25,549 nucleotides of DNA. Origin: a virus. Positions within the stretch are counted from its first letter, which is position 1; each line of letters opens with the position of its first letter. The DNA is taken from positions 1 to 25,549 of the IMG/VR virus record IMGVR_UViG_3300020214_001384; one strand, 5' to 3'. Positions 332-19,132 of the stretch are shown piece after piece. Below the pieces are notes generated by a model, which worked only from the letters and a program-made list of their open reading frames with translations, ran no database searches and was not told where the DNA came from. The position numbers and the translations under genes are program-made.

Positions 332-3300
332 ACTTTATGTAGAAGCTTTTTACTTGGTCATATGCTTCCCACTTATTAAGAACACTTAAAGCTGGTATGA
401 CATCCTTCCATTCTTTCCAAGCTTTTAATTCACCTTCATGTACCCCACGCTCGTAATAATTCTTATCATATGGTGGGAAAGGTATAAGCATCGTAGTTTT
501 TAATGCTTGACCAAAATCTTTAAGAGTAGTTAAAACAGCGAAAGGTGATTTAGCTATTAGATACTGCTCTTCCATACCAACAATAGGCATCATTGTAGAA
601 ACCTCTGTCATCTGACGGCTTTGCTGATAGGCCATGAAGTTTAACCAACGTTTTAAAGTCTTATCATCATCATCAGCTCCTTCAGATAGTGCTCTAAATA
701 CTCCATACATTGCAAAGCTAGCAGCAAAGAAAGCAAGCTCAGCTAAGTTCTTATACATGTTCTTAACCTGTATTTCATCAAGACCTTCCCAACCACTACG
801 AAGTTTTTCTAAAAATGATCCTTCAGACTCTTTAATATACTTAAGTAAATTAAGTATAGTAACATATCTACCTTCTACATCTCCCAAGTTTTCATCAGCA
901 TAACGCTTTTTAAACCTGACTTTATAAGCAGGGTACATCCATTTATGGAACTGTGCAGCAAGCTGACCTAACCAGTTTTCTTGTATAATCATTCTATCTT
1001 CAAAGGCATAGTTACCATGAATCTGTTTATTAACTTCAAAAATATAGTTATTTATATCATAGCGTTCTTTATCAGACATTTCAAACCCATCTTTTAAAGA
1101 AAGTTTACCTGTATTTGGATTAAATTCAAAAGCATCATATATAGACATAGTTTCACCAGTCTTACTGTTTGTAAGTTGGCGTGTCATTAATACGGCTATA
1201 CCAGACTTAGACTGTGAATTATATTCACCTCCCTCCTGTAATATGTAAGCCCAACTCATGACATCAACTCTACCAGCGTCTGCCTGGTATTTTCTGACCA
1301 TTCTAAAGTACTCTACAAGAGCTTCATATTTACTGTTAGGAGCTTTGTTCATGTAATAAGAGTCACTGCTTTTTCCAAGCCCTCTAAATACTCCTGGTAA
1401 ATAGTCTGTATTATATTCTCTTACAGCTCTTTGTGCTGCAGATCTATCGTAGTATAAGGCACCGGCTGTTTCAATAGATGTATTGATCCTAGCCATAATG
1501 TAATTGTTAATGTTACCAAATACGTTAAAACCTATTCCTTTTAATGAAGTTAGATTCTGTACACGTTTGGCCACCATAGCAACAGTAGATCTATTAAACT
1601 CCTGGTTATTATAATAAACCATTTGAAACCACTTCCGTAAACGTTTGGTTGCTAAAACATCTTCAGACCTTTTGATAACTGGCTTTCCTTCGTCATCTTT
1701 GGTTAGCTTAGATCCTCTACGTATAAGCTTATTGCCAAGTGAGTCTACTTCATAGTATACTCTATCATCCATTACTTTTGCAATGGCTTGTAAATCAGAC
1801 TCAATGTTACCCATTACTTCATAGTTTTCAGCCATGCTGGCAAAAGCTATCAAGTTGTTTACAAGATCCCCTTCTATCTCACCTGCTTTTACTTTACCTT
1901 CTTCTATCTTTAAATATTCTTTAAGCTTCCGCTTTTCCTGCAGATAATCCTTTTGGCTGATCTTATTCTGAGCTCGGTTATTCTTTAGCTTATTTAGTTC
2001 ATTTTTTAAGTATTCTACACGTCCTTCATTCTGAAGTTTACCTACATATAAAATAGGAAGACCTCTGTCAACTTGACCAAGTTCATCAACCAGTCTTTGG
2101 TTTGTATATGCGTCTGAAGTAAACAAATTTTTCATAGCTTTAGCTACAGCTTTTGTAAACCCAGGCCCTTTGCTTGCAAGAGTATCAAAAAAAGCTCCTC
2201 TTACTCTACCTACTTTACCACGCATTTGTGCAGCAACCTCAGGGGGTAGTTTTTCTAATGCATTCTGATACTCCTCAATCCAAGCTTTATAGAACTCAGC
2301 TTGAGCTTTTTCCAACTCTGTTTTAGGGTTCATCAACTTGACATACTTGGCATCACGCAGGTCTGTGCCATCTTCAGCAATATCTCTAACTTCTACAAAA
2401 TCACTCTTTACAAAATACCCTGTTTTTAAAGTCACTCGTCCTTTGAACGTACCATCTGCTTCCATTACAGCACCCCAGTAATTGCTTTCATTAAAGTACT
2501 TGAGTCTAAACTGTTCATACTGTTCATCAGTTATGCCAGACTTCTTTTCCCATTTATAAAAAACTGTTCCATCTGGCCTATTAAAAGCAATCAGCTCCTG
2601 GTAACGGTTACGAATTAACTTGTATGAGTCTGTATATTTATGATACTTACCATCTTCAGCCCCATTAGGACCCAGGATCTCTGCATTGTTAAACTCTCTC
2701 CAACCAGCTTTATCATAAAATAATTTTACATTATAGTCTAGATCTTCTTGTCTAGCGTTGGCTGGATCAAGTATTGGTACGTACTGCTTACGCTCACCAT
2801 TTTTCTCAGTAATCTTATTCTTAACAGCATAATACATATCAAAGTACTGAGAGCCAATCTTTGTCACATATCTACCAGTAAATTTTCCGGCTTTGTCAAA
2901 GACTTTCATGAAGTCAAAGAACTTGCCGTCAGGCTTAGTTACACCTGCAGCTTTTAGCAAAGCATTGCCAAATTGCTGTATACGATTGATAGTAGACTCT
3001 GTATTATCTTTTGCTCGGTTAACAGCAGCTTTGTAGATCTTATCTGCTATTGCTAAGAGTGTATCTTTAGAAGTAGCCATATCACCCAAGAAGTAATCTT
3101 CAGCTGGGATGTCATAAACTTCTTTCATTATGTTAGTGAGCTCCTCTTCTGATAAATCTCTAGATGTGTTATCTTTTACTACTTTCTTTACATAAAGTTC
3201 AATGTTATCATCAATGGCTTCTTTAGTATCATCTAATATACCAAGCAGATCTAGCATCATAGCTTGCTGTTCTTTACTACCTACCCCTTTAATATTTACA

Positions 3301-4886
3301 ATACCCCTATAAGATTCAATGTATTTATTGACCTCAAGAAGCATGGTTATATACTTTGGATCATTTATTGCATCAGGAGCAGTTATTTGCTTCAGATATT
3401 CCTTGATCTCTTTATTTGCAAAACGTAGAAAAGCACCATAAGCAACAGACGGTTTATCTAGTTTAAGCTCAGAACCCATCATTACAATAAGTTCATTGAT
3501 CTTATCTATCATCAAGTTCTTATCTACACTAGTTTTACCCTCACGTATTCTTTCTAAATACTTCTTTCTTATTTCAAATAAGTTGATTACTTTTCTTACC
3601 TCCTGATACATTCTTTCAAACATATCACCATAAAGCTCTTTCTCAGGCTTAGATTCTTCCTCTGTTAAAAAGTCTGGATCATCTGCCGGATTATCTTTAC
3701 CCAATTCTTTTTTCAGTTCTGATGTACGGTTCCTTGGCTCTAGCTCGGTTGGTATAACTTTGTCTACAAAATCTTTATTGATAGACAATGGATGTCTTAC
3801 TTCTCCTTCCCAGCTTATATCGGTTACTTTACGAGCTTTATCTAGATCTACTTTTAAATGTAGAGTAGATACTTCTTCTACTTCAAAACCAGCTAGTTCA
3901 ATAAGTTTTTTATAGGTTCCTACTTGGATACCGTGTTGCTGTCTAGTTGATAAAGTCTGTCCAACAAACACTGAACCTGACTTAACAGGATACTTGCGAT
4001 CATAGTTCTCTGATTTTACAGAGTTCTTTGATACTTTCAAATCTACTACACGGAGTCTACCTGTAGGGCTAATTACTAACAAGTCAAGAGAACCGGCCAC
4101 TTTAGATTGGTTATCTCCTAGTGCCACCTGAGTGACTACAATTGAACCATCTCTGGTTATACCATCAATATAAGCTTGCAGAACTGTGTATATGTTTTTT
4201 AAAACAGCCTCATCTATTTCTGATATCTCAGATGCTGATTCTTTAAAACTTTTACCTGATATGATACCTTGAAGTAACTTATCTATTGCAGTACCTATTG
4301 CACGATTTGCAGCATAAGCATCATCTTCAAGTTTACCTTTAATAGCTGTGGTTACTGAAGTATAGACCTCACCCTCTGAGTCAATGTACACATGACTAGT
4401 TGGCTCAAGCACAACTGGATTCTCTGGATTTTCAACCAGTGCTTCTACAATAGCCTGCTGTAGTTTATTACCTCTTTTACCAGCCTTCTTTAAAAACTCT
4501 GCTTTTTCAGGATTTAGAACATACCCCGTACTTACTTTTCCAAAACGACTGTTTTGATTTAAGACATTATTTTTAAATACAGCAAACTTGGGCTCACCAT
4601 TTTCATCGGCAAATAGACCCAAAGATTTGTTCATGTTTGTAAAAAAAGTCTGATATTCAGAACTGTACGCAATACTCCATAGACCCACTGCTATTTCTTC
4701 TGCAGATTCATTCAATAAAGTACCATCCTCAAGACGATCTCTTAAGTAAGGAATACTATCTATAAATTTCTGAGCACCTTCTTGTTTTACAGTCTTTAGT
4801 ATCTCTTCATATAAAATAGAAGATTTCTCATTAGGAGCTAGTACTTTATCAACTTTACCATTTGTTCTATACAACTGACAGGCCAT
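330..4886 (-). CDS. 1518-aa virion-type protein with N-terminal PD-(D/E)XK nuclease domain
   Basis: Last gene of the minus-strand block, 41 nt after the polymerase fusion, with no Shine-Dalgarno before ATG 4886. Residues about 160-290 look like a RecB/Cas4-type PD-(D/E)XK nuclease: H165-V-Y with SVTT just after, a GTAID motif at 198-202, then D268 in GSLDLL and D282-L-K284 in VVDLKVS, spaced as the metal-binding Asp and the D-x-K pair usually are. The remaining roughly 1200 residues are charged and mostly helical, with several Lys/Glu-rich stretches, and resemble no enzyme I can name. Near the C-terminus a hydrophobic segment (about 1384-1401) is followed by an acidic GADDDDK run. Nucleases of this type are known in crAss-like phages near the polymerase genes. 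Packaging in the virion is inferred from the operon. The role (host DNA degradation, DNA processing on entry, or packaging) is not visible. Confidence 0.85.
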   Translation of the reverse strand: MACQLYRTNGKVDKVLAPNEKSSILYEEILKTVKQEGAQKFIDSIPYLRDRLEDGTLLNESAEEIAVGLWSIAYSSEYQTFFTNMNKSLGLFADENGEPKFAVFKNNVLNQNSRFGKVSTGYVLNPEKAEFLKKAGKRGNKLQQAIVEALVENPENPVVLEPTSHVYIDSEGEVYTSVTTAIKGKLEDDAYAANRAIGTAIDKLLQGIISGKSFKESASEISEIDEAVLKNIYTVLQAYIDGITRDGSIVVTQVALGDNQSKVAGSLDLLVISPTGRLRVVDLKVSKNSVKSENYDRKYPVKSGSVFVGQTLSTRQQHGIQVGTYKKLIELAGFEVEEVSTLHLKVDLDKARKVTDISWEGEVRHPLSINKDFVDKVIPTELEPRNRTSELKKELGKDNPADDPDFLTEEESKPEKELYGDMFERMYQEVRKVINLFEIRKKYLERIREGKTSVDKNLMIDKINELIVMMGSELKLDKPSVAYGAFLRFANKEIKEYLKQITAPDAINDPKYITMLLEVNKYIESYRGIVNIKGVGSKEQQAMMLDLLGILDDTKEAIDDNIELYVKKVVKDNTSRDLSEEELTNIMKEVYDIPAEDYFLGDMATSKDTLLAIADKIYKAAVNRAKDNTESTINRIQQFGNALLKAAGVTKPDGKFFDFMKVFDKAGKFTGRYVTKIGSQYFDMYYAVKNKITEKNGERKQYVPILDPANARQEDLDYNVKLFYDKAGWREFNNAEILGPNGAEDGKYHKYTDSYKLIRNRYQELIAFNRPDGTVFYKWEKKSGITDEQYEQFRLKYFNESNYWGAVMEADGTFKGRVTLKTGYFVKSDFVEVRDIAEDGTDLRDAKYVKLMNPKTELEKAQAEFYKAWIEEYQNALEKLPPEVAAQMRGKVGRVRGAFFDTLASKGPGFTKAVAKAMKNLFTSDAYTNQRLVDELGQVDRGLPILYVGKLQNEGRVEYLKNELNKLKNNRAQNKISQKDYLQEKRKLKEYLKIEEGKVKAGEIEGDLVNNLIAFASMAENYEVMGNIESDLQAIAKVMDDRVYYEVDSLGNKLIRRGSKLTKDDEGKPVIKRSEDVLATKRLRKWFQMVYYNNQEFNRSTVAMVAKRVQNLTSLKGIGFNVFGNINNYIMARINTSIETAGALYYDRSAAQRAVREYNTDYLPGVFRGLGKSSDSYYMNKAPNSKYEALVEYFRMVRKYQADAGRVDVMSWAYILQEGGEYNSQSKSGIAVLMTRQLTNSKTGETMSIYDAFEFNPNTGKLSLKDGFEMSDKERYDINNYIFEVNKQIHGNYAFEDRMIIQENWLGQLAAQFHKWMYPAYKVRFKKRYADENLGDVEGRYVTILNLLKYIKESEGSFLEKLRSGWEGLDEIQVKNMYKNLAELAFFAASFAMYGVFRALSEGADDDDKTLKRWLNFMAYQQSRQMTEVSTMMPIVGMEEQYLIAKSPFAVLTTLKDFGQALKTTMLIPFPPYDKNYYERGVHEGELKAWKEWKDVIPALSVLNKWEAYDQVKSFYIK
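4035..4394 (-). other. PD-(D/E)XK nuclease motif region (residues 165-284 of the 1518-aa protein)
   Basis: Positions 4394 to 4035 encode, in order, H165, the GTAID motif (198-202), D268 and D282-x-K284. In RecB-like relatives the second motif is usually G-T-x-x-H. Here Asp202 stands where His is expected, while the Asp and D-x-K residues needed for metal binding are present. Confidence 0.75.
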
Positions 4887-4927
4887 AAGATTCTGGATTT
4901 ATTTAATATAAAGTATACAAGTAGATT

Positions 4928-7900
4928 TTACCCACCTGCACACTCATCATTAAGAGGATTTTGTCCACGTGACATCATTTCTATCCTACGTTTAATTTCT
5001 TCAGGATCTACCGGAGGATTTTTTTCACTTGTTGGAGAGCTATCTGAACCAAATATCTGGCTGCTTTCTACCATGCGTCTGATTAAATCAACATTAGGCT
5101 TACCTTCAGCTGCTGCTTGTTTAAGACTTTCTGCTGAATTTTCTGTAGATGTAGACACTATAGGAGCTGCCGCACTGGGAACATAGCCAAGTGCTCTTAA
5201 CAGATCTGCAGGAGTTACTATTTTTTCAAACTCTTTAGCAGTCATTTTTTCTTTCAGCATATCAATAACATCTCCTTCAAAGGTAACACCTTTACCAGCC
5301 TCTATCTTCATTGTGATACCATAATCTTCAAGTAAGATTGATTTTGGAGACCGTGACCCTGTATCTACTGGTTTAGAAGCAGCAGCTACTTTTGCATCAG
5401 CAGCTGTTTGCTGTACAGGAAATCCATGGCGAAGCATCCAATTTTCTTCTTTAACAGCATCCTCAGATTTAGTATAATAAAAAGGATTAAAATCCGCTGT
5501 GTTTCCAATAGGGCGTCTATATCTTGGCAGCTTAGCTGTTTCGGGTATAGGATCAAACATAGCAGCACCTTTAAATGTCTTAGCCGCACCCTTTCTTTGT
5601 ACTGGCTCATAGAATGCTGCTATACCCTGAGCTACTAATTCACCCTTTTGAATAAGTCTTTTTGGATCAAAGTTTTTATCCTGGCTTTTTTTAGTCTTTC
5701 TAACTGATTTAAGAATATAGTACTTATCTGCTTTAAACATATCACCACTGCTTACTTTAATTATATAAGGAAATAACACTTGTCCAGAAGGATTACTTAT
5801 AAAGCCTTTATCTCTTAGTGATTGCATGTTTTTACTAAACTTACCTTTTTCGTTATCATTGAACTTACGACTTTTTGTTCTGGACTCTTTTAGCTCTTCT
5901 TTTTCCTCTTCACTTAGTGAAGTGACATACTCAATGTAATCCTCATCACTCATGAATGTGATACCAGCCTGCTCCTCTAAACTCATCTCAGATATAGCTT
6001 GTTGCTTGTCTCTTGTTCCACGGAATATATCAATACTTATTCCTTTTTCTGTCTCTACTAATGACGCAGGTTCAAAGCTGTCTACAACTTTATTTCCTGT
6101 AGGCTCAAACTTGCTTTCATTGTAAATAAGCATCTTGCGTACATAGTATGAGTTACCAGTATGAGTAACGTAATTCTCCATAAACTCATTGAATAAATCA
6201 AGAGAGGTTATTCCAAAGACTTTCTTATACTGCTCATCCATTTCTTCCACATTATCAGCATTAACTGATAGCTTTAGAATATCGTTGGCACGACCAGTGC
6301 TATTAAGAAAATCTGTAAATATAAAGTTTGGTATGTAGCGTATAAATGATCCACTTCTAAACTGAGCACCATCTTTTACAATTAAATAGTTGAACAGAGC
6401 ATTAGCCATATCACGGCCGTTGCGTCCTTTACCATCAAAGTCTTCTTCTGACTGATATATATCTACAAATGCATCACGAAGTTTTTCAATCTGGTATTCA
6501 CTTAATTTAGCCCATGTGTTAGCCTCAAGTTTATTTATACCATCTCTGTTCTTTGAATTAAGAGCTATCTTGGACTCTGCATCAACTACACTTGTAGAAA
6601 TTACATTTAAAAACTGATTAGCTAAATAGTTATTAGGAAGCTTTTGACGGATGGTTCTCATGATTTCTACAATATCCATAAAGTCTTCCCCTTTGGCTAC
6701 GGCTGCTTCATCATAAAGAAGTGCATTAGTCATTGTAGATAGCGTACCAGTTCTGCCGCTTTCAGCTAAGAACTTTCTATACGCCTTAATTGACAGATAT
6801 GATATAAGATCTTTCTTAAGCTCTGTATTAAATCTTTCTCTAAGAGAAGGTCTGACATTTAAGTTAGACTTAACTATATCCTCAATACGCTTAAATATAG
6901 CTGTTCTTTCCAAGAACATACCTTTACTGATCTCACTTATCTGGTCAGCAATCTTGATGTATCCTTGTATATATGTGTGGAAAGGCTTGTTTTGGTCATA
7001 GCCCATCATAATCTGACGAAGATCAAAAGGAGGAACCTGGCCATATATTGGATCTAAATATCTTTCAAACTTCTCATTATCTCTTACTCTCAGACCAAGC
7101 ATATCAATCTTTTCGTTGATAGCATCGTACTCTTCAAAGCTAGTACCAAGTCCTTTGGTGAGTTTTAATATACCAGCTACAGCACTGTAGTAACGACTCT
7201 GGTTTATTATTCCCATGAAGTCTTCCATTACAGATGCCTGGTAAGTTGCACTAGAACCGTTGTCTTTAATATTATTTACAAGTATATCGTCAGTTAAATC
7301 TTCTTTAGAATACTCTTGACCAGCTCTTTCTTGATACTTGTTCAGCAACTCTTTTGCAACTTGAGACTTGAATATTAAGCTTTCTGCACCGGTCTTAATA
7401 TTATTTGAAGCAATTTTAGTTTGCTCAAAATACTCTCTTACAACTGGTTGTAGCATTAACAAAACAGCTGAGCGAAGAGGTACACCTTGAGCTACTATAT
7501 TAGATACATATCCAACTGCTTCAATGTTCAATCCTAAACGAGCAGCCAGACGCTCTTTTGTGTTATCAGTCATAGCTGACACAAGAGTGGATATAGTACT
7601 GAATATACGCTGGTTTGAATCATACTTACCAGACGCAGAATTATAACTTCTTGTATTACCGTAGTTTGAGAAAACATGACCATTCAGCTTAAAGTTAAAT
7701 ATCTTTGCAGGTTTGCCATCTGAACCTATAAAAGTATCTCTTAGCTTGATATTGAAGTTGTTTAATATAGCATATACAAGCATAGAATTAACTGCAGGAC
7801 CGATGTTTCTAGAACCTTCTTTGTTATTCTTATAAGCTTTATACTTACCAAGCAAGCTATCGGTGTCAGATCCGCCCTCAAGAAGTACTTCTCCAAGTCC

Positions 7901-10900
7901 TTTAGGATATATTTTGTTTCCGTCTTCATTAACACCTATAGATAATAGATCTAAAAAATTATCTGTTGCAGCTGGATCTAATAAATCACTTAATGCTTTT
8001 ACAGAAGCTACTTTAAATCCAATGGCGTTACTACCACCCTTTGTTACGTGCTCGTTATTTAAAAAAGCTAATTTTTGAGCAAGTATTCTGTTGTTAAGTA
8101 CACCGTTATTAAGTTCAGTTTTAGAGCTTGCAAGTTCTATCTCAGTTGCTGGCAATCCAATTTCTTTTAAACTTTCTTGTATAAGCCTAGTCTCTACATC
8201 TTTCATTTCTGTAGCAATAGACTTAAACTCATTATACCACTGAGTACCCATTGTAAGCACAAAATCTCGTTCTTCTTTTTCATCTAGTGCAGCTATCATT
8301 TCTTGCAAGTCTCTTACAAAGTATGTGTCTTCAGTTAGACCATATTGGTCAGAGAACTCTTTAAGTTCAGGAATACCAGTTAGCTTTTGCCTAATAGAAT
8401 CAACTAATCTAGCACTTACAACAGCAGTAACAAACCCTTGACGAATAGACCCATCAGACTTTTGAATATTATTAAAAGCTTTATCTATATCTTTTTCTAG
8501 CCGTTTAAGATCTGCTATTTTCTTTAGTATTGATAAATAATTAGGATCAGTATCTTTTTTCTTTTCAAGCTCTTCTCTGAATGTTCTATTGTTTTTAGAA
8601 TTCCATCTTACAAACTCTTCAAACTTTCCTTCTCTTGTCTTTGCACTACCGTAAGCTACACGTTTACCACTTCTAGTATAAGTCTCTGCAATGTGCATGT
8701 AGAGTTTATCTATGTCAAAGTCAGCTCCTGAAATCTCAATAAGCTCATGAGGAAATACAGCCGTAGAACCATAATAAGCAGGCATAAAGTCCACCATCTT
8801 CAAAGAAATAAACGAGTGCTTATCCTGACTTGGAATACGTACTCCAAACATCTTTGCAATATGATCTGGAATTCTATCTCCAGGCTTTAAGTTCATGTCT
8901 TCCATAAAGTGAGGAGGCATCATAAACTCAGAGTAACGGCCTATTATCTTCCCGTTCTTATCATACTCAGGTACATTATGACGCAAGTCATCTACATAAA
9001 TATCTCCTTCTTTTAAATCTGTAAACTGACGGTCTAAATCATTGTTCCAACGCTTAGCCTTCATGTATTTTTTAGGATCTTTTTCTACTACAGAACGCTG
9101 AACAACCTCACCTATAGGATTACCTTCTTCATCAAATCTGCCAGTAAATACTTTAACTACTTTTATACCAAAGTTTGACATCAAGGCCACAGAGTGACCA
9201 GGAGATTTTTCACTCATTACCCCTTTAGAGAAGTATGCTAAGAATAACTGAGTATACTTTTCAAGAGTAAGTGTACTGTTAAGATTATATTTCGGCTTGC
9301 CTGTTTCCTCATCTAATGAAAAGAATTCTAAAAGCTGACTGTCTGCTCCTGAAGATCTCAGAGTTTCAATAGCTCTTTGTTGGAACTTCTCTAGTTTAGC
9401 AGTTATTTTATCTTGCTGTATTGACTTACCAAGCTCTTCAAAACCTTTCTCAATATCAAAGATATCGTTACGAGCTCTGAAATAATTGTTTTTAATACGT
9501 TGATCTGTATCTTTTAAATAAAGATTCTTAAGTTCACCAATGGTTGTATTTGATCCCATAAAGTTAACCTGTGTACTATTATCTTGTTCTGCAATAATAA
9601 TCTGTTTAGCCTGCGTAGGATCTGTAATCTGTATTTTATTTGACGGGTTAACCAGCTGTAGTCTCCAGTACTTTGTACTTTGGCCAACAAAGTTATCATC
9701 TGAAGCATGTCTAAAACCACTTCTTGAATCAAATATGTTTCTCTTAATACCTTTACTTGCAGACTTAGGGGCAGCAAATGTTACTGTAGAGTTTTCAGAC
9801 TCAAATCTCTCCATACGCTCTCTTAAGTCATGCAGCTCCTCATAGCCGGGTCTAGCAATCCATCGGCCATCTACCTGCATAGAAGTAAGCTCTTTAGTAA
9901 GCATTACCGTAGAGGTTTTGATATATTGAGGACCGTCAAAATAAACAAGCTTGTAAGAGTTAAACATTCCCTCTATAGCCTTCAGACCATTCTCGCCAAA
10001 TATTTCTTCTGGTGTAAGCTTTTCACCGTTTTCAATCTTATCTAAAATCTTAGCTCTTTGAGGTGTCAGCTGCCCTAATCCAAACAACGTATAACGCATA
10101 CCTTTTGTAGTAGTATAAGACTGAGCATCAGCTTTATCTTTTAATCCACCAGCAAACTTTGCTTTATACTTAGGGTCATTAAAAGTTAAAATATGTGACT
10201 TAGTAAACTGTTCAGTAATACCCAGCTCAGGAGCAAGAACAACAGATTCTAAACTAGCTCCAGAACCGTTGGCTCCTTTAGCACGTTTAACCTGGTCAAT
10301 GTCATCTTTAAAAGCTTTAGCCTCATCACCATACAGAAGCTGATTAAATGAAAGAGTATTAAGATAGTCATTAATTAGTATCTGACTTAAGTTATGCCTT
10401 ACACTATTAGGAATAAGGTTAAGCTTATCATTCTTTTTCTCATCCGGAATGTTCTTATTTTCCTCCCCTTTAGATTCAAAACCAGCTACAATAAAGTCAT
10501 CAACCAAATTATTTACAATAGTCTCGTTGTTATTCTCATCCTTACTGATTGTAACTACTCCCAAGTTATCTAGCTTTTCAACAAACTGTGATATCTGTTC
10601 TCCCCAGTATTCTTGAATACGAGAATTAATTTTAGCCACTTTTGTATTAATGTCAAAAGATGGGTTTAATGCATCAGCTTCTAGTTCTTCAGCTAGTTGT
10701 TTGCCAAGAGCATTGGCCATCTTGTAAAACTTCAAGCCACGAGGCTTTTTCTTTGCATCTCTGTTTCCGTTACTGTCTACAGAATAATGGTAACCTTCAA
10801 TCTCACCGTCTGTATATATACCGGTTTTGATCTCAAGATTTACTGTCTGGATTCTTGCAAACTCCCTAGCTACTTCTTTAGCCATCATCACAACAGCCTC

Positions 10901-13900
10901 TTTAGTAAGCTTAGTCTTTCCGTCCGCGTCTGTTTCAACAGCTTTAATTACAGGAAGTCCAATTGTATCCCCTGTGTTTGAAGCTTCAATAACACGAATC
11001 AGATGCTGGCTTGTATAAAAAGTGCCTTTTTCTGCTTTAACTTCCTTGTTATATTTATAAAGCTCTAACAAGGACACTATAAATTCACGGTCCGAGAAGC
11101 TACCGTAGGTAATACCTTTATTCTGGTTAGAAGAAATAGTCTTATCCTCAATAAGACTTCCATCTTCTGTCTCATTAAGAATAGAGCTCTTCATTCCTTC
11201 TATCCTTTCAACTCTAAGATCACCGAGCAAATGACGGAACTCATTGGATTCCAATAACATATTGCCAGCAATAAAGTCATCCTGAGATATTGTATTTAAT
11301 GTTTCAGGATTATTTAATGCATTTACTTGAACAAGATGGAATGTAGGTAACTGGTGAGCATATACAAGCTCCCCTTCTGCGTTCTTGTAGGAGGTGCTGC
11401 TGACTGTTTCATCAAAAATAGCATTGCCTTTAGCCAGGTCATTAATCCGGCTTACGTTTCCACCCTCACCAAGATCATCAACTGCATCTTGATCGTCCTG
11501 TTCTTCACCTGGAAGCACAATAAGCTCCTCTTTAAGACTGTCTAGGTTTTTAGCAAACGGATTTTCTAAAGCTTGTATAGACTTAATAATCTGTTTTACG
11601 GACTCAACAGTAGTACCTTCTACGTCTGAATATGATTCTGTAAGCTTACGCTGGGCCTCTGTACGGATATCAGCTTTCTTTTTAGAAGCTATTGAGAACT
11701 TAATAAACAACGGGGAAAGAGATATACCAAGATCTTCTTTCAGCTGGTTGCTGATCCGCTGAGATTCTATATGAAGATCCTCATCAGATATATATGTTCC
11801 TGGATCTAAATAAGTTAGCAAGTCTTGCAGAGATTCTGTTCTTTCTTTTGCAAAAGCTTTCTTCTCCTCACTACTTTTTAATCTAAGTATCTCATTCTCA
11901 AATACTTGTACATATGCATTCTGCCATTGAGTAAACTGAGTCTTAGCCTCTCCCATACGGTTTGCAAGCATAAGAGCCGATATCTTCTTTCCTTTACGGA
12001 TATCCTTATTGATAAAGATGTAATCAACAGTATACTGCTGGAATCCTTTAATGACCATTTGGAAAAGAGTAGCCTGCTTAGGGTTATTAACTGTAAACTC
12101 CCCTGTAACAGGATTTACCTCTAAGTCAACGTCATTAAAGAACTTGTCAAGAAACTTACCTGTTTCTGTGTTGTTATCTCTTAGCTGCTGAAGCCTGCGT
12201 ACAAACTGGGCTTGATCAGTAATATTAGCAACGGCTTTAAGAACCCCATTGTATACCAGGTTAGCATTAACTGCCTGAATAAGAGGTTCCCCGTTTACAA
12301 ACTGAGTATTACCAAACTCGTCATTATCAACTGTAAATGTGGTAGCAGCAATATACTGACGGAGGAACTTACTTAAACTTCCAAAGCCACCAATAGAATG
12401 AGTTTCTTTCCAGTTATCGGTAGTTACTCTAGAACCAAACTCATCTTCCATACTAACATACTCATCATCTTCAAGCTCCTGCTGGTATCCCATTACTCGT
12501 AAATGAATGTCTACAGCTTCAGCTAATGATTTTCTGTTGTCCTCCTCGTAAAATACCTGATACTTCTGATTTAATTTATTAAGGTATTCTTGAGCAAGAT
12601 TTGGATCTTGGTCATGTAATGTTTCAACTTCATTATAATAAAACTCTTTTTTAGGACCTTCTATGTTATATAAATCAAGAAAGTCAGCAAAGATGTCTTC
12701 TAATAGTTTCTTTTTATTGTATGTCCCTGTACTGTTTAATACTCTCATGTGATATATAGACGCCACAGTACTAGCAAGCTGGTCACCCTCTTGTTGAGAA
12801 AGATACTTTGGTATAGTAACGTACATACCATTTTCATCTAACACATCTATTTCACCTATCTTAATAACTTTAAGAACAGGCTCACTTATACTTAATGCAT
12901 CAGACTTTGTAAAACGGTTATCCCGTACTTTACTGTTTCTGTATGCCCCTCTGTCAATTTCACGGAAGAAGTTTATAAGTTCATTACGTGACCCACGATT
13001 AAACAAGCCCTTGATAAAATCCCAAAGCTTCTGAAACCAACCACGGATACCAGGTAGAGTTTTGCTTGTAGATTGATTGTTTTTAAAGTCCTCAAACTGG
13101 TCAGCCATATACTCTTCATAAAATCTCTCTTCTAGTTCTTTATCACTCATTTCCGAGTAGATAGTATGCAGCTCACGCATCTTCTGCATTTCAGCCTTTA
13201 CATTTATTCCTTTCTTACCAGCCTCAATCTTAGCATAAGCTAATAACTTATCTATTTGATTGTCATTAAGCATCAAACGGAATACAGCGTGAAATGCTTC
13301 GTGGTATTTAAAACCGGTGTTAGCACCAACTTCTATACGTCCTTTTACAGAAGACCTGCCATCTTGGAGTACTTCTAAATATGTTAAGAATCTACCAACA
13401 GTAATGTTACCATTTTTAAGACGGTCTGCTAAAACTTCCATCTCTTGAACAGAAACCTTATCACCTAGTATACGATTAATATACTTTTTAAATTGATCTA
13501 TGTTTACTACACTACCCTGATCAAACACAGGAGCGTTGGTAATTTTTAAAGCAGTGTTTCTGCCAGCATTTCTGATATCATTAATCTTGTCCTGAGCAGC
13601 CTTTATCTTTTTATTAAACAAAGCAGAAGCTTCGTTATTAGCTTCTATCATTGCGGCTGCAGTACGAGTTCCGTTAGCTATCTTATCATCTCTACGTTTG
13701 ATAGCTTCAAGTTCTTTATCTCTTTTTAGACTGTCAAGCTCCATCATAGCCTGATCTAATGCAGGATTTTGACTTACTGGATTAGCTTGTTGCTGCTCGG
13801 CTGTACCAGAAGGGGCACCCGACATATTAGCAATCTTATCTCTTAGTGCTTGTCTTTCTTGCTCAGAAAGCTCCTTATTTTTACTTGCTGGCTGAGCCGC

Positions 13901-16900
13901 TGTTGGCTGAGAAGACTGTGGAGGAGTAGGAGGAACAACCTCTACCGATACTGCTTTTACAGATAACGGAACATTTTTAACCACATCTTGAGAAACACTA
14001 GTACGAAGCTGTACTTCATTACCCGTAATCTGGCTGATTGAAATAGTATCAGGACTAGATACCTTAAAGTTTTCTCTTGTTAAAGTAAAGCCTATCTTAT
14101 GTGATTCGTTCTTAGCGTAGTCTTTATCATGTTTCTCTATAGCAGCATTTATCTGCTTTATCATGTCATCAATACTGTCAAACTTTGCAGGATCTGCAAG
14201 TGTTTTTCCATAAACATATATCCGTCTACGAATGTCTTTATCCCCAACTTTTTTATGAAAAGTTAGTTCTAAGTTACCTGTATCATTTAAAGCAAAAGTT
14301 ATATATGTACCAATACCTTGTTGAGGTACAGATATAAATAACGTAGAAGCTATCTCTGAATTTATTTCTTCATTGTAGTCTATCTTTTTACGTACATATA
14401 TTTTCTCCTTCTTTTCATTTTCTCCAGTCTCTACGTTTTTTTCCTTAGTAACAGCAGACCGCTCATTAAGCTTTGTAATCAGACTATTAAGCTGATCATC
14501 TGACATAGGATCAGTTACTAGTTCAATAAAACGGATTGCTCCATTAGGCATCTTAACTACAGCTATATATCTACCTAACTGAGCTGTTGTATCTCTTACA
14601 GCTTTAACTTGAGCTATTTGTTTTTCAATATCTTTACGAGCCTGGCCAGTAGCATTAGTGATTGGTATTTCTGTAATTTTAAAAGTAAATCCTTTACCAT
14701 AGCGTTTGCTACGATCAATAATATAGTAATACCCATCAATAGTATTATAAGGTAGTTGATCAAACGTCACTCCTTTTTTTACAAAGTCAAACTCACCAGT
14801 TCCTACGTTAAACTTAGTAACTTGAGAAACCTGCTCAGGGGTTATTTCAACTTCTTGACCAGGTTTTACGAACTTACTAAGTGCGGCAAATACCGCCCTG
14901 GAAGAGTTATAGTTAGACTTAAACTCTTGCATCTGAGCCATTGGGTCTTTACCTTGACTGTCAAATATCTTTCTAAACTGCTCTAGAGTAAGATTAGACA
15001 TAGGTACAATAGTACCATTATCAGCTATAAATCTTAAGTTATCATAGTTGGTCAAGTAACCAATTGGAGCACCTTTGTAAAGAATCTGAATCTTGTATTT
15101 TTCCTTGGCTTGTACCAGATTTGGGTTAGTCTTTCTGCCACCTGATACATTTTTTAATTCATCATTCTTTGGGTTTTCACTTATTCTAATACTAATACCT
15201 GCAGCTAGTTCTTTTGGATCAGTTGTTTTAAGAAGTGTATCTAATCTTTTCTGAGCAGCATCGTCTGTATCATCTGTATTTCTGTGAGGATATATCCTGC
15301 TAAGTTCATTAGTACGAACCAGCCTAAATATATCTTTATCAATAACTTCACCAGTTTCCTGAGCTTCTAACTTTTGCTTAATAGAAAAACCATCAAGGCT
15401 AGAAACAATAATTGAGCTGTTAGTTCTCTGGCGGTTTCTTAAAAGTGTAAGTCTAACAAGAGGAGTTTTCTTTTCCTTATCATCATTGGCATAAAAAGGT
15501 TCACCTTTTGTAGCTACTACATATTCCTTACCTGTTTTGTTATCTGTTAAGACAAGTCCTGCTCTAATGTCTTGACCGCTAAATGCATAAAAGCTTCGGT
15601 CTTTTTTATCCTTATCAATTCTTTGAGTAATAATCTCATCCCTACCTGCTATTGATTCCGCTTTAGTAACATAGCTTACGCTTATATTTCTTTCTAAAGG
15701 ATCATTTCTATCAGAGTCCATAATCTGGTGTAGACCATTTTCTCCTTTAACTATGTAGACTCCATCTTTACCATCGTCAATGAGAGTTTCCCCTTTGTTG
15801 AGCTTTGGTTTGGACATCTTTACCTTTCTAGTAGGAAGCTCTATTACATCCAGATTATCAGCTGGATTTATCTGCTGCTGTTCTTGTTTACTAAGTCCAT
15901 TGGTAGCAATGAGATTATCAATAAATTTAGGTAGTAAATACTTAGAGATCATCGTAGCAGCCTCTTCTGCAGGCATGCCTTCTTTGGCACCCATATCTAA
16001 AAGAGCCTGTTTTACTTCCTCGGGTTTTAATGTATCCTGATAAGCAAAGTATGCATTCTCAACATCAGCTATAGATACCCCAAGCACATTGGAAAGTCTA
16101 GTAAAGACATCTTCCATTATGTCTGTTGTTAGAGTCTGAGCGGCTAAGACATCCTTTTTTATTACTTCTAAGCCTGCTTTTCTATCCTTAGCTTCTTGAG
16201 CCAACGACTCTGCTTTGTTATACTTCTTATTGTAAAGCTGAGTAAAAGTCTTGCCATTGGGTGAGTTTACCCACTTATCAAAACTAAGATCAGTCTGACC
16301 AGCAGACTTCATGCTTTCATAAGCATCCTGCATGTACTTTGTAAAATCTGGTACCTCTTCACCCTTTTCATCAGGAGGGGTAGATTTCTTTTGAGTCATT
16401 GCAGAAATAGCTTCTTGAATATGCTCCTGATTTAACTTTTCAGCAGCTGCATCCATTGCTTCTAGAAGACGCTTATGAACCTGTACAAATTTTATAGGAT
16501 TAGCTAAAGTATTGTAAGCATCAATATAGTCTTTACTGTCTTTATTAAGTTCAATGTAATCTATAAGCTGCTCATAAATATCCTGAACATCGTCCAGCTT
16601 TACTTCTTGTGTAATACCTGATTCCTGATTTTTAGAAACCACATAATTCTGAAAAGCTGTAAGAGCTTTTTTGAACTTTCTTTTCTGCTTTATACCTTTT
16701 AACTTTAGAGTCTCGTGGTTCTCTTTCCAATTATTTAAAGACTTTAACTGGTTTTTCTTACTCTTAATAAGATCCTTAGTAGTCTTGTCCTTCTCTTCCT
16801 GAGCTTCAAGATTACGTATTTCGTTTTCTAAAAGTTCTATTTCTTTTTCTGTATTTTGTATAACTCCAAGATTTCTAAAGGCAGTAGCCACACTGTTTCC

Positions 16901-19132
16901 TATTCCAGGAATACTAGCTACATCTGTTTGAATCTTAACAGCTCTCTGTGCAGAGCGAGTAGCTTTGTAGTTATTAGTAGCTAATATTTCTATAGCATCA
17001 TCTAAAGCTCTTTTAGCTCTAAGTGCTGTCTTACGTTCAGGTGTACCTTCTTTATAAAGATCAACCATGACAGCGTCTCCAAATTTATCTTTTAACTGCT
17101 TCCATGTCTTGTGAAAGTCTTCAGTTTCATTAGCTACTTTATTAAAGTACTCCTTTACTGAAGATATGTTTTCCTGATTCTTGTCTAAACCAAAAGCTTG
17201 TTTGAACTCATCATCGCTAAAACTATCACCGTATTCTCGGATAGTGTTTATAACAGCTTTATGCATATCTGTCTTTATAGCAGCAGACATCATCTTTGCA
17301 AAAGCCCCATCTTTATTATTTACAAACTCGTACTTGTCACGATTACGGATAGCTTCTTCCATATTCTTTGCCGCACGATCTTGTACTTTTACATTGGCAA
17401 TATGCTCGTTTAAGAAAAGACTTGGTTTTTCATAAAAAGCATTAACTAAAGAAACAGCTTCTTCTACTTTAGCTTTGCGTTCTGCACGCTCAAGACCAGA
17501 TGTACCAGCATAGTATTTAGTCTTACCTACAGCAAAGTTTATAGGTGATAATAGACGGCCGGTAAGTGCCCCCATTAGAAAGGTCTTTGTACCCTGGATA
17601 TTAGTAAATGGGTTATCTATTCCATTCATAATAGATTCCATCTTACTATCATAGCCTTTAGAGCCATGGTATAAACTGTAATAGTAATCTGTAAGTCCTT
17701 TATTAGAACCTTCTTGGAACAATTCCTGAAGTCCTTCAGTAGTTTCCCACTTAAATATATTTCTACCTAATGATTTAGTAGCTTCCCATGCAGCTGTTCT
17801 TTTACCAAAGTCTCTTGAGATTTCACCAAGTAAACCAAATGTGCCAAGCTTACCTTTTGTATAAGCTTTCATTGTTTTCTCACCTGCCTCACTTGCTACA
17901 GATCTGCCAGTGACTTTTAAAACATCATCTGCAAATTCACCAGTAGCTCCAAAGAAAGCTCTACCTGCAGTAAAACGACCAAATAAGTTATTAAACTGTA
18001 GTCGGTTAGATAGCATAAGAATACCTGTGTTAACATTAAAGTTATCATAGGCAGCATCCATTGCATTTTTCTTTATAGACTCAAGCTCTGAGCCTATAGG
18101 AGCTTGTCCTGTATATCTTAGACTTTCATCAAACAGTTTATTGTATAACTCGCCATATGTTCCAGCTGACTCCATACGTGCTTCTGTCATAGCCATGTTG
18201 ACTTCAGACAATAACCTTCTTACACCACCTACTCCAATTGATGCCAGCTGTAAGGCACCAGCCCCAGCTTTACCATACTTTGACATAGTATAAGCTGTAT
18301 TGGCAAGTGGTATAAACTGACGAGCTGATTGAACAGCACCTTCAGTAAAGCTTTTAGATTTCCAAACTGGATTACCAAGCTTTACTAAATCTTCTGCTAC
18401 ATCAGCATGTGAAACAACTCTACCTGCCCATGCTGAAGATTTTAAACCAAGTTTGGCTAATGAGAATTCTGTAGATAAACCCCAGGTAATCAACTCTTCA
18501 GTCAAAAACTGAGAAATTGCTCCAACAGCAAAACCTGATTGTTGAAGCATATCTCCAAAGAACTTACGGTTAAACAGACCTTCTTCTGATTCCGGAGTAC
18601 TAAATATCGCGTACTTATTAAGTATGTCCTTAGTTGTTTTATCTTGTGCCAGCAGTTCTTCTTCTGAACCTACTATTTTTGAAAAGTCTTGTGCAGCTAT
18701 TGCATCTACTAAGTGTCCCCAGCCTTTCCATCCTTCTACATACGTGTTGCCAGCTAATGAAAACATACCTGCTAAACCATTACTCCATACATCACCCCAG
18801 GTTTGACGAGCACCATAACGGTACTCATTTTCTGTGCCTATTGTTGGATTAAAACCTATAGAAGTAAAGTTGCTTGATTGTTTATACCTATCCGCTTGTG
18901 TAGCGTCATAGTCAAAAAACCTTGGAGCAGATAGTGTTTCTATACTAGTTGGTGCTCCGGCAAACTCACTAAGTTTATTTTCAAGAGTATTTACAGATAC
19001 TTCAGCACCGCTGTAATCCCCAGTACTAAGTAAATCAAATACGCCAGTTTCCTGTTCTGGTATAGGTAATATAGGGTCATTAAAATATTCCCCTTGTAAA
19101 GAATCAGGTATAACACTATTAGGTACGGGCAT
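4928..19132 (-). CDS. 4734-aa fusion: ejection-like N-terminus, zincin protease and virion RNA polymerase
   Basis: One uninterrupted frame from ATG 19132 to TAA 4930-4928. Residues 1-about 900 have a conserved-looking start (FFDYDATQADRY, then QTWGDVWSNGLAG) and hydrophobic stretches near 200, 289 and 520. A coiled coil follows at about 760-835. A Pro/Gln/Ala-rich linker spans about 1732-1795. A zincin protease motif HEAFH is at 1944-1948, with EEYMAD at 2006-2011 as the probable third ligand. The polymerase core holds DAQSY (3002), DGPQY (3066), PKSASKG (3122), RIPSQ (3432) and DFDID (3471-3475), and resembles the two-barrel core of multisubunit RNA polymerases as in crAss-like phages. Related phages package this enzyme in the virion and inject it to transcribe early genes. 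The N-terminal part may help it cross the envelope (inference). At 14.2 kb the gene is far longer than the roughly 2200-residue polymerase of phage phi14:2. The C-terminal roughly 400 residues end in a Ser/Ala/Pro-rich tail of unknown role. Confidence 0.93.
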   Translation of the reverse strand: MPVPNSVIPDSLQGEYFNDPILPIPEQETGVFDLLSTGDYSGAEVSVNTLENKLSEFAGAPTSIETLSAPRFFDYDATQADRYKQSSNFTSIGFNPTIGTENEYRYGARQTWGDVWSNGLAGMFSLAGNTYVEGWKGWGHLVDAIAAQDFSKIVGSEEELLAQDKTTKDILNKYAIFSTPESEEGLFNRKFFGDMLQQSGFAVGAISQFLTEELITWGLSTEFSLAKLGLKSSAWAGRVVSHADVAEDLVKLGNPVWKSKSFTEGAVQSARQFIPLANTAYTMSKYGKAGAGALQLASIGVGGVRRLLSEVNMAMTEARMESAGTYGELYNKLFDESLRYTGQAPIGSELESIKKNAMDAAYDNFNVNTGILMLSNRLQFNNLFGRFTAGRAFFGATGEFADDVLKVTGRSVASEAGEKTMKAYTKGKLGTFGLLGEISRDFGKRTAAWEATKSLGRNIFKWETTEGLQELFQEGSNKGLTDYYYSLYHGSKGYDSKMESIMNGIDNPFTNIQGTKTFLMGALTGRLLSPINFAVGKTKYYAGTSGLERAERKAKVEEAVSLVNAFYEKPSLFLNEHIANVKVQDRAAKNMEEAIRNRDKYEFVNNKDGAFAKMMSAAIKTDMHKAVINTIREYGDSFSDDEFKQAFGLDKNQENISSVKEYFNKVANETEDFHKTWKQLKDKFGDAVMVDLYKEGTPERKTALRAKRALDDAIEILATNNYKATRSAQRAVKIQTDVASIPGIGNSVATAFRNLGVIQNTEKEIELLENEIRNLEAQEEKDKTTKDLIKSKKNQLKSLNNWKENHETLKLKGIKQKRKFKKALTAFQNYVVSKNQESGITQEVKLDDVQDIYEQLIDYIELNKDSKDYIDAYNTLANPIKFVQVHKRLLEAMDAAAEKLNQEHIQEAISAMTQKKSTPPDEKGEEVPDFTKYMQDAYESMKSAGQTDLSFDKWVNSPNGKTFTQLYNKKYNKAESLAQEAKDRKAGLEVIKKDVLAAQTLTTDIMEDVFTRLSNVLGVSIADVENAYFAYQDTLKPEEVKQALLDMGAKEGMPAEEAATMISKYLLPKFIDNLIATNGLSKQEQQQINPADNLDVIELPTRKVKMSKPKLNKGETLIDDGKDGVYIVKGENGLHQIMDSDRNDPLERNISVSYVTKAESIAGRDEIITQRIDKDKKDRSFYAFSGQDIRAGLVLTDNKTGKEYVVATKGEPFYANDDKEKKTPLVRLTLLRNRQRTNSSIIVSSLDGFSIKQKLEAQETGEVIDKDIFRLVRTNELSRIYPHRNTDDTDDAAQKRLDTLLKTTDPKELAAGISIRISENPKNDELKNVSGGRKTNPNLVQAKEKYKIQILYKGAPIGYLTNYDNLRFIADNGTIVPMSNLTLEQFRKIFDSQGKDPMAQMQEFKSNYNSSRAVFAALSKFVKPGQEVEITPEQVSQVTKFNVGTGEFDFVKKGVTFDQLPYNTIDGYYYIIDRSKRYGKGFTFKITEIPITNATGQARKDIEKQIAQVKAVRDTTAQLGRYIAVVKMPNGAIRFIELVTDPMSDDQLNSLITKLNERSAVTKEKNVETGENEKKEKIYVRKKIDYNEEINSEIASTLFISVPQQGIGTYITFALNDTGNLELTFHKKVGDKDIRRRIYVYGKTLADPAKFDSIDDMIKQINAAIEKHDKDYAKNESHKIGFTLTRENFKVSSPDTISISQITGNEVQLRTSVSQDVVKNVPLSVKAVSVEVVPPTPPQSSQPTAAQPASKNKELSEQERQALRDKIANMSGAPSGTAEQQQANPVSQNPALDQAMMELDSLKRDKELEAIKRRDDKIANGTRTAAAMIEANNEASALFNKKIKAAQDKINDIRNAGRNTALKITNAPVFDQGSVVNIDQFKKYINRILGDKVSVQEMEVLADRLKNGNITVGRFLTYLEVLQDGRSSVKGRIEVGANTGFKYHEAFHAVFRLMLNDNQIDKLLAYAKIEAGKKGINVKAEMQKMRELHTIYSEMSDKELEERFYEEYMADQFEDFKNNQSTSKTLPGIRGWFQKLWDFIKGLFNRGSRNELINFFREIDRGAYRNSKVRDNRFTKSDALSISEPVLKVIKIGEIDVLDENGMYVTIPKYLSQQEGDQLASTVASIYHMRVLNSTGTYNKKKLLEDIFADFLDLYNIEGPKKEFYYNEVETLHDQDPNLAQEYLNKLNQKYQVFYEEDNRKSLAEAVDIHLRVMGYQQELEDDEYVSMEDEFGSRVTTDNWKETHSIGGFGSLSKFLRQYIAATTFTVDNDEFGNTQFVNGEPLIQAVNANLVYNGVLKAVANITDQAQFVRRLQQLRDNNTETGKFLDKFFNDVDLEVNPVTGEFTVNNPKQATLFQMVIKGFQQYTVDYIFINKDIRKGKKISALMLANRMGEAKTQFTQWQNAYVQVFENEILRLKSSEEKKAFAKERTESLQDLLTYLDPGTYISDEDLHIESQRISNQLKEDLGISLSPLFIKFSIASKKKADIRTEAQRKLTESYSDVEGTTVESVKQIIKSIQALENPFAKNLDSLKEELIVLPGEEQDDQDAVDDLGEGGNVSRINDLAKGNAIFDETVSSTSYKNAEGELVYAHQLPTFHLVQVNALNNPETLNTISQDDFIAGNMLLESNEFRHLLGDLRVERIEGMKSSILNETEDGSLIEDKTISSNQNKGITYGSFSDREFIVSLLELYKYNKEVKAEKGTFYTSQHLIRVIEASNTGDTIGLPVIKAVETDADGKTKLTKEAVVMMAKEVAREFARIQTVNLEIKTGIYTDGEIEGYHYSVDSNGNRDAKKKPRGLKFYKMANALGKQLAEELEADALNPSFDINTKVAKINSRIQEYWGEQISQFVEKLDNLGVVTISKDENNNETIVNNLVDDFIVAGFESKGEENKNIPDEKKNDKLNLIPNSVRHNLSQILINDYLNTLSFNQLLYGDEAKAFKDDIDQVKRAKGANGSGASLESVVLAPELGITEQFTKSHILTFNDPKYKAKFAGGLKDKADAQSYTTTKGMRYTLFGLGQLTPQRAKILDKIENGEKLTPEEIFGENGLKAIEGMFNSYKLVYFDGPQYIKTSTVMLTKELTSMQVDGRWIARPGYEELHDLRERMERFESENSTVTFAAPKSASKGIKRNIFDSRSGFRHASDDNFVGQSTKYWRLQLVNPSNKIQITDPTQAKQIIIAEQDNSTQVNFMGSNTTIGELKNLYLKDTDQRIKNNYFRARNDIFDIEKGFEELGKSIQQDKITAKLEKFQQRAIETLRSSGADSQLLEFFSLDEETGKPKYNLNSTLTLEKYTQLFLAYFSKGVMSEKSPGHSVALMSNFGIKVVKVFTGRFDEEGNPIGEVVQRSVVEKDPKKYMKAKRWNNDLDRQFTDLKEGDIYVDDLRHNVPEYDKNGKIIGRYSEFMMPPHFMEDMNLKPGDRIPDHIAKMFGVRIPSQDKHSFISLKMVDFMPAYYGSTAVFPHELIEISGADFDIDKLYMHIAETYTRSGKRVAYGSAKTREGKFEEFVRWNSKNNRTFREELEKKKDTDPNYLSILKKIADLKRLEKDIDKAFNNIQKSDGSIRQGFVTAVVSARLVDSIRQKLTGIPELKEFSDQYGLTEDTYFVRDLQEMIAALDEKEERDFVLTMGTQWYNEFKSIATEMKDVETRLIQESLKEIGLPATEIELASSKTELNNGVLNNRILAQKLAFLNNEHVTKGGSNAIGFKVASVKALSDLLDPAATDNFLDLLSIGVNEDGNKIYPKGLGEVLLEGGSDTDSLLGKYKAYKNNKEGSRNIGPAVNSMLVYAILNNFNIKLRDTFIGSDGKPAKIFNFKLNGHVFSNYGNTRSYNSASGKYDSNQRIFSTISTLVSAMTDNTKERLAARLGLNIEAVGYVSNIVAQGVPLRSAVLLMLQPVVREYFEQTKIASNNIKTGAESLIFKSQVAKELLNKYQERAGQEYSKEDLTDDILVNNIKDNGSSATYQASVMEDFMGIINQSRYYSAVAGILKLTKGLGTSFEEYDAINEKIDMLGLRVRDNEKFERYLDPIYGQVPPFDLRQIMMGYDQNKPFHTYIQGYIKIADQISEISKGMFLERTAIFKRIEDIVKSNLNVRPSLRERFNTELKKDLISYLSIKAYRKFLAESGRTGTLSTMTNALLYDEAAVAKGEDFMDIVEIMRTIRQKLPNNYLANQFLNVISTSVVDAESKIALNSKNRDGINKLEANTWAKLSEYQIEKLRDAFVDIYQSEEDFDGKGRNGRDMANALFNYLIVKDGAQFRSGSFIRYIPNFIFTDFLNSTGRANDILKLSVNADNVEEMDEQYKKVFGITSLDLFNEFMENYVTHTGNSYYVRKMLIYNESKFEPTGNKVVDSFEPASLVETEKGISIDIFRGTRDKQQAISEMSLEEQAGITFMSDEDYIEYVTSLSEEEKEELKESRTKSRKFNDNEKGKFSKNMQSLRDKGFISNPSGQVLFPYIIKVSSGDMFKADKYYILKSVRKTKKSQDKNFDPKRLIQKGELVAQGIAAFYEPVQRKGAAKTFKGAAMFDPIPETAKLPRYRRPIGNTADFNPFYYTKSEDAVKEENWMLRHGFPVQQTAADAKVAAASKPVDTGSRSPKSILLEDYGITMKIEAGKGVTFEGDVIDMLKEKMTAKEFEKIVTPADLLRALGYVPSAAAPIVSTSTENSAESLKQAAAEGKPNVDLIRRMVESSQIFGSDSSPTSEKNPPVDPEEIKRRIEMMSRGQNPLNDECAGG
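8708..10129 (-). other. RNA polymerase catalytic core motifs (residues 3002-3475 of the fusion)
   Basis: The DFDID triad (D3471, D3473, D3475; bases 8722-8708) is preceded 39 residues earlier by RIPSQ, and the phrase ISGADFDIDKLY matches the arrangement of cellular beta-prime subunits, where R-x-P-T is followed by NADFDGD. DAQSY, DGPQY and the Lys-rich PKSASKG upstream fit the first (beta-like) barrel of single-chain phage enzymes. The three Asp are expected to hold the catalytic magnesium. Assignment of the upstream motifs to the first barrel is less certain than that of DFDID. Confidence 0.85.
13100..13303 (-). other. zincin metalloprotease motif region (residues 1944-2011 of the fusion)
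   Basis: HEAFH (bases 13303-13289) gives two His zinc ligands and the catalytic Glu1945. EEYMAD, about 60 residues downstream, supplies a plausible Glu ligand, as in gluzincin-like domains of large phage proteins. A zincin domain near the RNA polymerase has been described for crAss-like phages. Its substrate is unknown. Confidence 0.8.

Follow-up and report, generated by a model that had tools for sequence, protein, structure and literature searches.

Phage phi14:2 carries its RNA polymerase inside the virion, and this enzyme transcribes the early genes. In Bacteroides phage PhicrAss001 (Steigviridae; host Bacteroides intestinalis), mass spectrometry identified gp47, gp49, and gp50 in virions, and in the published model the cargo is partially unfolded and gp45 leaves from its N terminus to its C terminus (PMC10172136). 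The tail of such virions is known to contain disulfides (PMC10172136). A review describes crAss-like RNA polymerase genes of up to ~6,000 amino acids (PMC10136315), and earlier work has shown that gene boundaries are mobile (in the Zeta group) and that these proteins contain PD-(D/E)XK domains (PMC10136315, PMC7886860). Another giant protein, gp96 of phage P23-45, is part of the virion and is responsible for transcription of the pre-early genes (PMC10770324). Phages deliver megadaltons of enzyme in a set order through a narrow tail.

We analyzed a viral contig of 25,549 nucleotides from IMG/VR (hereafter the window), most of which is taken up by one giant gene, P0001 (Table 1). The original prediction was of a single open frame of 4,734 codons encoding a chain of over 500 kDa, and it pointed to a sequencing error that joins separate genes as one way in which this could be wrong. 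The frame is real and the computed mass agrees, but the gene is on the minus strand. (The plus strand across this region is full of stops.) P0001 is the fourth in a row of five same-strand genes, with intergenic gaps of 19-58 bases. Homologous single ORFs are present in four other IMG/VR contigs (4742, at least 4524 [contig end], 4791, and 5129 amino acids, with 87, 72, 65, and 55% identity to P0001). Relative to the nearest homolog, Ka/Ks is 0.05 overall, 0.11 just past the fusion junction, and at most 0.21 in every segment where it could be computed. Because the frame is intact in independent contigs and Ka/Ks is so low, P0001 is neither a chance open frame nor a sequencing join. About 90 dereplicated environmental relatives, as well as the deposited genome of cr1_1 (in GenBank), have the same single frame; this already refutes an assembly or sequencing error, which no observation favored and to which we assign a negligible probability.

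Table 1. Features of the window. Residue numbers (aa) refer to P0001 unless another protein is named.
Feature	Position	Strand	Remarks
P0001, giant gene	4928..19132	-	4734 aa, 533 kDa; predicted A (gp47-like cargo) + zincin-like + B (virion RNA polymerase)
Module A, aa 90-940	16313..18865	-	similar to PhicrAss001 gp47 and Lbo-JY46 Lbo2
Coiled-coil-like stretch, aa ~760-800	16733..16855	-	read by eye from the translation
Variable linker, aa 1721-1860	13553..13972	-	Pro/Gln-rich at start (~1725-1760)
Zincin-like domain, aa 1861-2075	12908..13552	-	matches gp47 C-terminal region; invariant motif residues
HEAFH, aa 1944-1948	13289-13303	-	motif in zincin-like domain
RNA polymerase moiety B, aa ~2086-4734	4931..12877	-	profile and fold matches to 6VR4
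DFDID catalytic motif, aa 3471-3475	8708..8722	-	aspartates invariant in polymerase alignment
Cys4731 codon	4940..4942	-	sole cysteine of P0001; three residues from chain end
P0002, module C, 1518 aa	330..4886	-	gp49 homolog, third cargo protein
Cys3 codon of P0002	4878..4880	-	sole cysteine of P0002
P0003, 1033 aa	19152..22253	-	cysteine-free; position of cargo gene gp46
P0004, 700 aa	22312..24414	-	position of cargo gene gp45
P0005, truncated at contig edge	24435..25547	-	M15-like peptidase signature by eye

Single-sequence searches with P0001 gave no match in PHROGs or the PDB and one match in Pfam (E = 0.026, below the curated cut-off), so profiles were needed. A profile of 51 polymerase sequences (alignment A4) matched the RNA polymerase of phi14:2 (PDB:6VR4) in two stretches, with E = 5.7e-35, and the aspartates of the DxDxD motif (D682, D684, and D686 in A4) are invariant. 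In pairwise profile alignments, aa 2587-3483 and 3842-3906 of P0001 align with the phi14:2 polymerase and aa 4217-4343 align with residues 2120-2222 of PhicrAss001 gp50. An AlphaFold model of aa 2790-3960 (pLDDT 82; Foldseek E = 5e-27) has the two-barrel single-chain polymerase fold with DxDxD, and it superimposes on 6VR4 749-1716 with Z = 18.9 over 743 residues. The next fold matches were QDE-1 and plant RDR2 (Z = 12-13) and then P23-45 gp96 (Z = 9.2). Confidence is lower for the model of aa 1790-2560 (pLDDT 69). Within it, aa 2088-2547 nevertheless align with 6VR4 97-653 (Z = 6.5), putting the junction near aa 2085, directly behind the zincin-like domain. Both the profile and the fold thus bear out the complete DFDID polymerase core that had been proposed. 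By analogy with phi14:2, we infer that this polymerase would be packaged in the virion and would transcribe early genes.

The N-terminal half of P0001 gave no tblastn match among phages. In pairwise hhalign comparisons with PhicrAss001 gp47, aa 106-206 match 88-194 (E = 8e-4), aa 500-662 match 484-653 (E = 4e-8), and aa 1939-2070 match 2152-2296 (E = 3e-3), so that three collinear segments span gp47 from 88 to 2296. Also, aa 308-896 match Lbo2 of Lbo-JY46 (E = 8e-10). The likeness to crAss-like internal virion proteins that had been proposed for this region is therefore to a gp47-type cargo protein, and the proposed coiled coil and Pro/Gln-rich linker are both legible in the translation (the coiled coil by eye). 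The linker is the fastest-evolving segment of P0001 (Ka/Ks = 0.21). We had considered a Pro-Pro cutting site within it, but we dropped this candidate because two relatives (L003 and L004) have not conserved the PP motif. Overall, P0001 is almost certainly a head-to-tail fusion of a gp47-type protein, which ends in a zincin-like domain, with a virion RNA polymerase.

The third cargo module, C, is encoded by the next gene, P0002, which matches PhicrAss001 gp49 (hhalign E = 2e-15). Its aa 146-345 form a PD-(D/E)XK-like domain (phrog_298 exonuclease, E = 3e-9). In P0002 and cr1_1 this domain is within module C, but PhicrAss001 has it within gp47 (1714-1850), which shows that the domain has changed modules. 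Homology of P0003 to gp46 or of P0004 to gp45 was not detected by single-sequence hhalign.

Comparing gene fusion and fission in related genomes, as had been suggested, we found one constant order across cassettes (A, zincin, B, C) and shifting gene boundaries. (A slash marks a gene break.) The modules are three separate genes in PhicrAss001 and Dulem 41; they are arranged as A/BC in Intestiviridae and Crevaviridae, as AB/C in the window's clade and Suoliviridae, and as A/zincin-B/C in Spirosoma genomes (L109/L113) and in L093, L148, and L182. In L099, L106, and others, a single gene of 5.3-5.7 thousand amino acids encodes all of ABC (a triple fusion). Breaks also lie inside the polymerase (L040 and L203, with three genes, AB'/B''/C) and inside A (L130, L134, and L135). 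The original prediction implied that the single-gene state was new, which does not hold: cr1_1 already has it, Intestiviridae fuse the other boundary, and very long RNA polymerase genes have been reviewed (PMC10136315). Given that giant virion polymerase genes and mobile boundaries are published and that cr1_1 is deposited, the fusion is of a known kind.

The zincin motif is supported by conservation. The ligands of HEAFH...EExxAD (H, E, H, and EExxAD) are invariant in 32 aligned sequences; HExxH with the downstream Glu ligand was lost in two lineages elsewhere. The domain also has homologs in crAssphage that carry a zincin annotation, and we call it zincin-like on the basis of the invariant residues and this homology. 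As to a known zincin fold or family, a fold search with the model that spans this domain and the junction (aa 1790-2560) found no protease and no zincin fold, and the region's matches were weak (Pro-Pro endopeptidase, E = 0.05; FtsH, E = 0.8; Tox-MPTase4, E = 0.003, below the cut-off). In summary, the motif that was originally reported stands, with conserved ligands; the weaker model (pLDDT 69) gave no match to a known fold.

If the domain is an active protease, then P0001 might be a polyprotein that the domain cuts, so that the virion would have a gp47-like protein and a separate polymerase. The invariant motif and the position of the domain next to the junction are what this would lead us to expect. 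Furthermore, in the one lineage where a gene ends immediately ahead of the zincin-like domain, all five dereplicated loci have EExFH (the first His is gone), as if the protease were not needed there. But in the longest chains (A-zincin-B-C), which would most need cutting, the site reads WEAFR or similar in 8 tree rows that have both A and C; one triple fusion, L137, retains HExxH. Phages in which gp47 has its own gene (PhicrAss001 and Dulem 41) retain the motif just as well, and the fused junctions lack the terminal cysteines of real chain ends (see below). Across the tree, HExxH is kept in 98 scored rows and lost in 14, which requires two changes: to the WEAFR type in triple fusions and to EExFH in the A/zincin-B group. 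An active protease is not kept wherever the modules are fused, which implies that long chains can generally do without zincin catalysis. Because the site is lost in most triple fusions, we ranked self-cleavage lower as the reason for the fusion, and we consider it improbable.

The triple-fusion chains with replaced metal-binding residues (WEAFR, WESFR, or WEAMR) are L099, L102, L106, L118, L119, L121, L124, and L126. As a separate observation, L072 has an insertion of ~1,300 codons (4528-8507) inside its polymerase part, between regions that match aa 2762 and 2901 of P0001, with two more HExxH motifs.

As noted in Table 1, P0001 and P0002 each contain one cysteine, and these lie at the ends that face each other; the outer ends in the window (the start of A and the end of C) have none. 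Of the dereplicated polymerase ORFs that end in a stop codon (119), 103 have a cysteine in the last 8 residues, against 0.31 expected from the composition of these ORFs. Among the ORFs that come next, the first 12 residues include a cysteine in 95 of 96 (0.76 expected). These counts are from related loci and are not independent events. The sequences do span families whose polymerases are barely alignable, and the gene breaks fall at no fewer than four different places. Exactly one cysteine is present in 82 ORFs, and the overall density is 0.29 per 1000 residues, versus 7.8 in the head-gene block.

When chains are fused, the pair disappears. None of 11 chains that are fused to C has a C-terminal cysteine, and those listed hold no cysteine anywhere. 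(Five further ORFs lack a cysteine in the last 8 residues: two have it 9 or 14 residues from the end, and L132 is itself as long as a triple fusion. Exceptions with no terminal cysteine include L070 and L200.) Conversely, new breaks have new pairs. In the genomes with a split polymerase, these are ...EVRC/MAC and then ...LDDC/MKC (L040) and ...EVEC/MAC and then ...GCKK/MAC (L203). Breaks inside A have pairs in L134 (...IINCN/MALGC and then ...ICAF/MAISC), L135 (...DNCNT/MGC), and L130, and breaks before the zincin-like domain have ...RHC/MDC (Spirosoma type) or ...KRCV/MKDC (L093). Frameshift-like ORF breaks (L067 and L160) have no cysteine at the break. The rule holds in PhicrAss001, phi14:2, cr1_1, Dulem 41, Lbo-JY46, Suoliviridae, Intestiviridae (whose polymerases have additional internal cysteines), Crevaviridae, and cr127_1. 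An incomplete search of the literature turned up no paper on the terminal cysteines of these proteins; as far as we can tell, the rule is new.

These cysteines also bear on whether the frame of P0001 could yield two proteins, with the polymerase translated from an internal start near the junction. In other families, the gp47 and polymerase functions are indeed separate genes. But in a check of ATG starts among five relatives, no Met in aa 2040-2200 is conserved, and the junction lacks the N-terminal cysteine of real polymerase starts, so an internal start seems very improbable.

Pairs at facing ends, none at outer ends, loss upon fusion, and return at new breaks fit a role in joining chains. 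A disulfide would be the simplest join, and judging from these sequence patterns, it is reasonably likely that consecutive chains are stapled together by disulfides. The thiols could instead serve in metal binding or recognition. In one such scenario, the terminal cysteines are packaging or docking signals or metal ligands, and the chains avoid cysteine so that they can cross the oxidizing periplasm unfolded. The near-absence of cysteine from whole chains, and from P0003 and P0005, is as avoidance predicts. (The whole cargo set seems to be purged of cysteine; besides P0003, a 901-aa protein of L025 [9108-11813] has none.) But a signal or ligand does not explain why, in the window, pairs are found only at inner boundaries and not at outer ends, or why triple fusions have no pairs and breaks in new places have fresh ones. 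We consider this scenario unlikely. A point against disulfides is that the gut and many sediment habitats are reducing, and disulfides form less readily there.

We propose that the cargo chains are packed in the capsid and would leave through the tail as one unfolded thread. Following the PhicrAss001 model of cargo exit, the N terminus would leave first: the gp47 part, then the polymerase, and then P0002. Cys4731 of P0001 would be disulfide-bonded to Cys3 of P0002, either after assembly or on exit, giving a covalently continuous ribbon some 6,250 residues long. Once in the host cytoplasm, the bond would be reduced, and the polymerase would refold and transcribe early genes. Fusing or splitting genes would leave the injected thread unchanged, since a cysteine pair would make good every gene break. 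We view this full account (the fusion, its parts, packing, and stapled ejection) as probable on the whole. It also seems fairly likely that all crAss-like phages inject one covalent thread of ~6,000 residues whose coding is spread over one to four genes. In this view, each break, be it inside A, on either side of the zincin-like domain, inside the polymerase, or ahead of C, would be bridged by a disulfide from the C-terminal cysteine of one chain to the N-terminal cysteine of the next, and internal cysteines would be purged.

The original prediction asked if such a chain is unfolded, cleaved, or threaded. The cysteine pattern adds evidence for threading, and cleavage is weakened by the loss of the zincin active site in most triple fusions. 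If we are correct, this would support unfolded, ordered threading, it would explain both the free movement of gene boundaries in the cassette and the lack of cysteine, and it would be an unusual natural way of joining separate proteins head to tail. The cysteine rule offers a specific and cheap test in PhicrAss001 and phi14:2, which can be cultured.

We place this bacterial virus with the relatives of gut crAssphage (order Crassvirales), although the window itself has no terminase, portal, or capsid gene. Crassvirales-type versions of these were found in one relative only (L003/G003, a 127.7-kb contig; phrog_6681, phrog_6547, and phrog_11589), whose portal is nearest to that of Leptolyngbya phage Lbo-JY46 (33%) and then Epsilon phage csAssE-Sib (27%). 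PhicrAss001 TerL as a query had no match in the relatives, but PHROGs did detect TerL in L024. In a quick tree of 138 polymerase cores, with long branches present, the window groups with mostly environmental sequences, in a supported clade of 104 that is separate from the gut families.

Some cassettes are in bacterial assemblies. Contigs of cultured Spirosoma oryzae and S. terrae contain crAss-like polymerase cassettes (L109, L113; NZ_PVTE01000009, NZ_JAAFZH010000004; also L143, L144). The S. terrae contig is 573 kb, and IMG/VR viral contigs of 151.5 kb and 120.5 kb share the Spirosoma cassette sequences. These are possibly integrated crAss-like proviruses. Relatives in MAGs labeled as Pseudomonadales, Campylobacteraceae, Neisseriaceae, Sphingomonadaceae, or Bdellovibrionales (L107, L108, L110, L111, L112, and L114) are likely mis-binned phage contigs.

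Among the described systems, the phi14:2 polymerase is, like that of P0001, a two-barrel single-chain enzyme with DFDID, but at 2180 aa it stands alone, and we could not detect a zincin in its neighbor, gp078. P23-45 gp96 (5002 aa) is also a giant chain with a two-barrel polymerase, but there the polymerase is N-terminal and is fused to the tape measure of a long-tailed phage. Lbo-JY46, the closest isolate by the portal of L003, has A and C modules with a terminal cysteine pair, but its A gene lacks both zincin and polymerase. (In this phage of a cyanobacterial host, the A and C cargo genes have no adjacent large polymerase; a 674-aa DWDGD protein that lies elsewhere [L026, 39334-41358] may be a compact polymerase.) PhicrAss001 has all three modules, as gp47, gp50, and gp49, and the same terminal cysteines as the window, but in three genes, with gp47 on the strand opposite gp49 and gp50. 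Finally, cr1_1 (Suoliviridae; Culoivirus, MT774380) has the same order as P0001 in one gene of 4551 aa, with YHEAFH at 2000 and DFDVD at 3445, and its next gene is C with PD-(D/E)XK. It differs from the window in its very divergent sequence, its origin in the human gut, and its longer C protein (2007 aa), but it shares the terminal cysteines.
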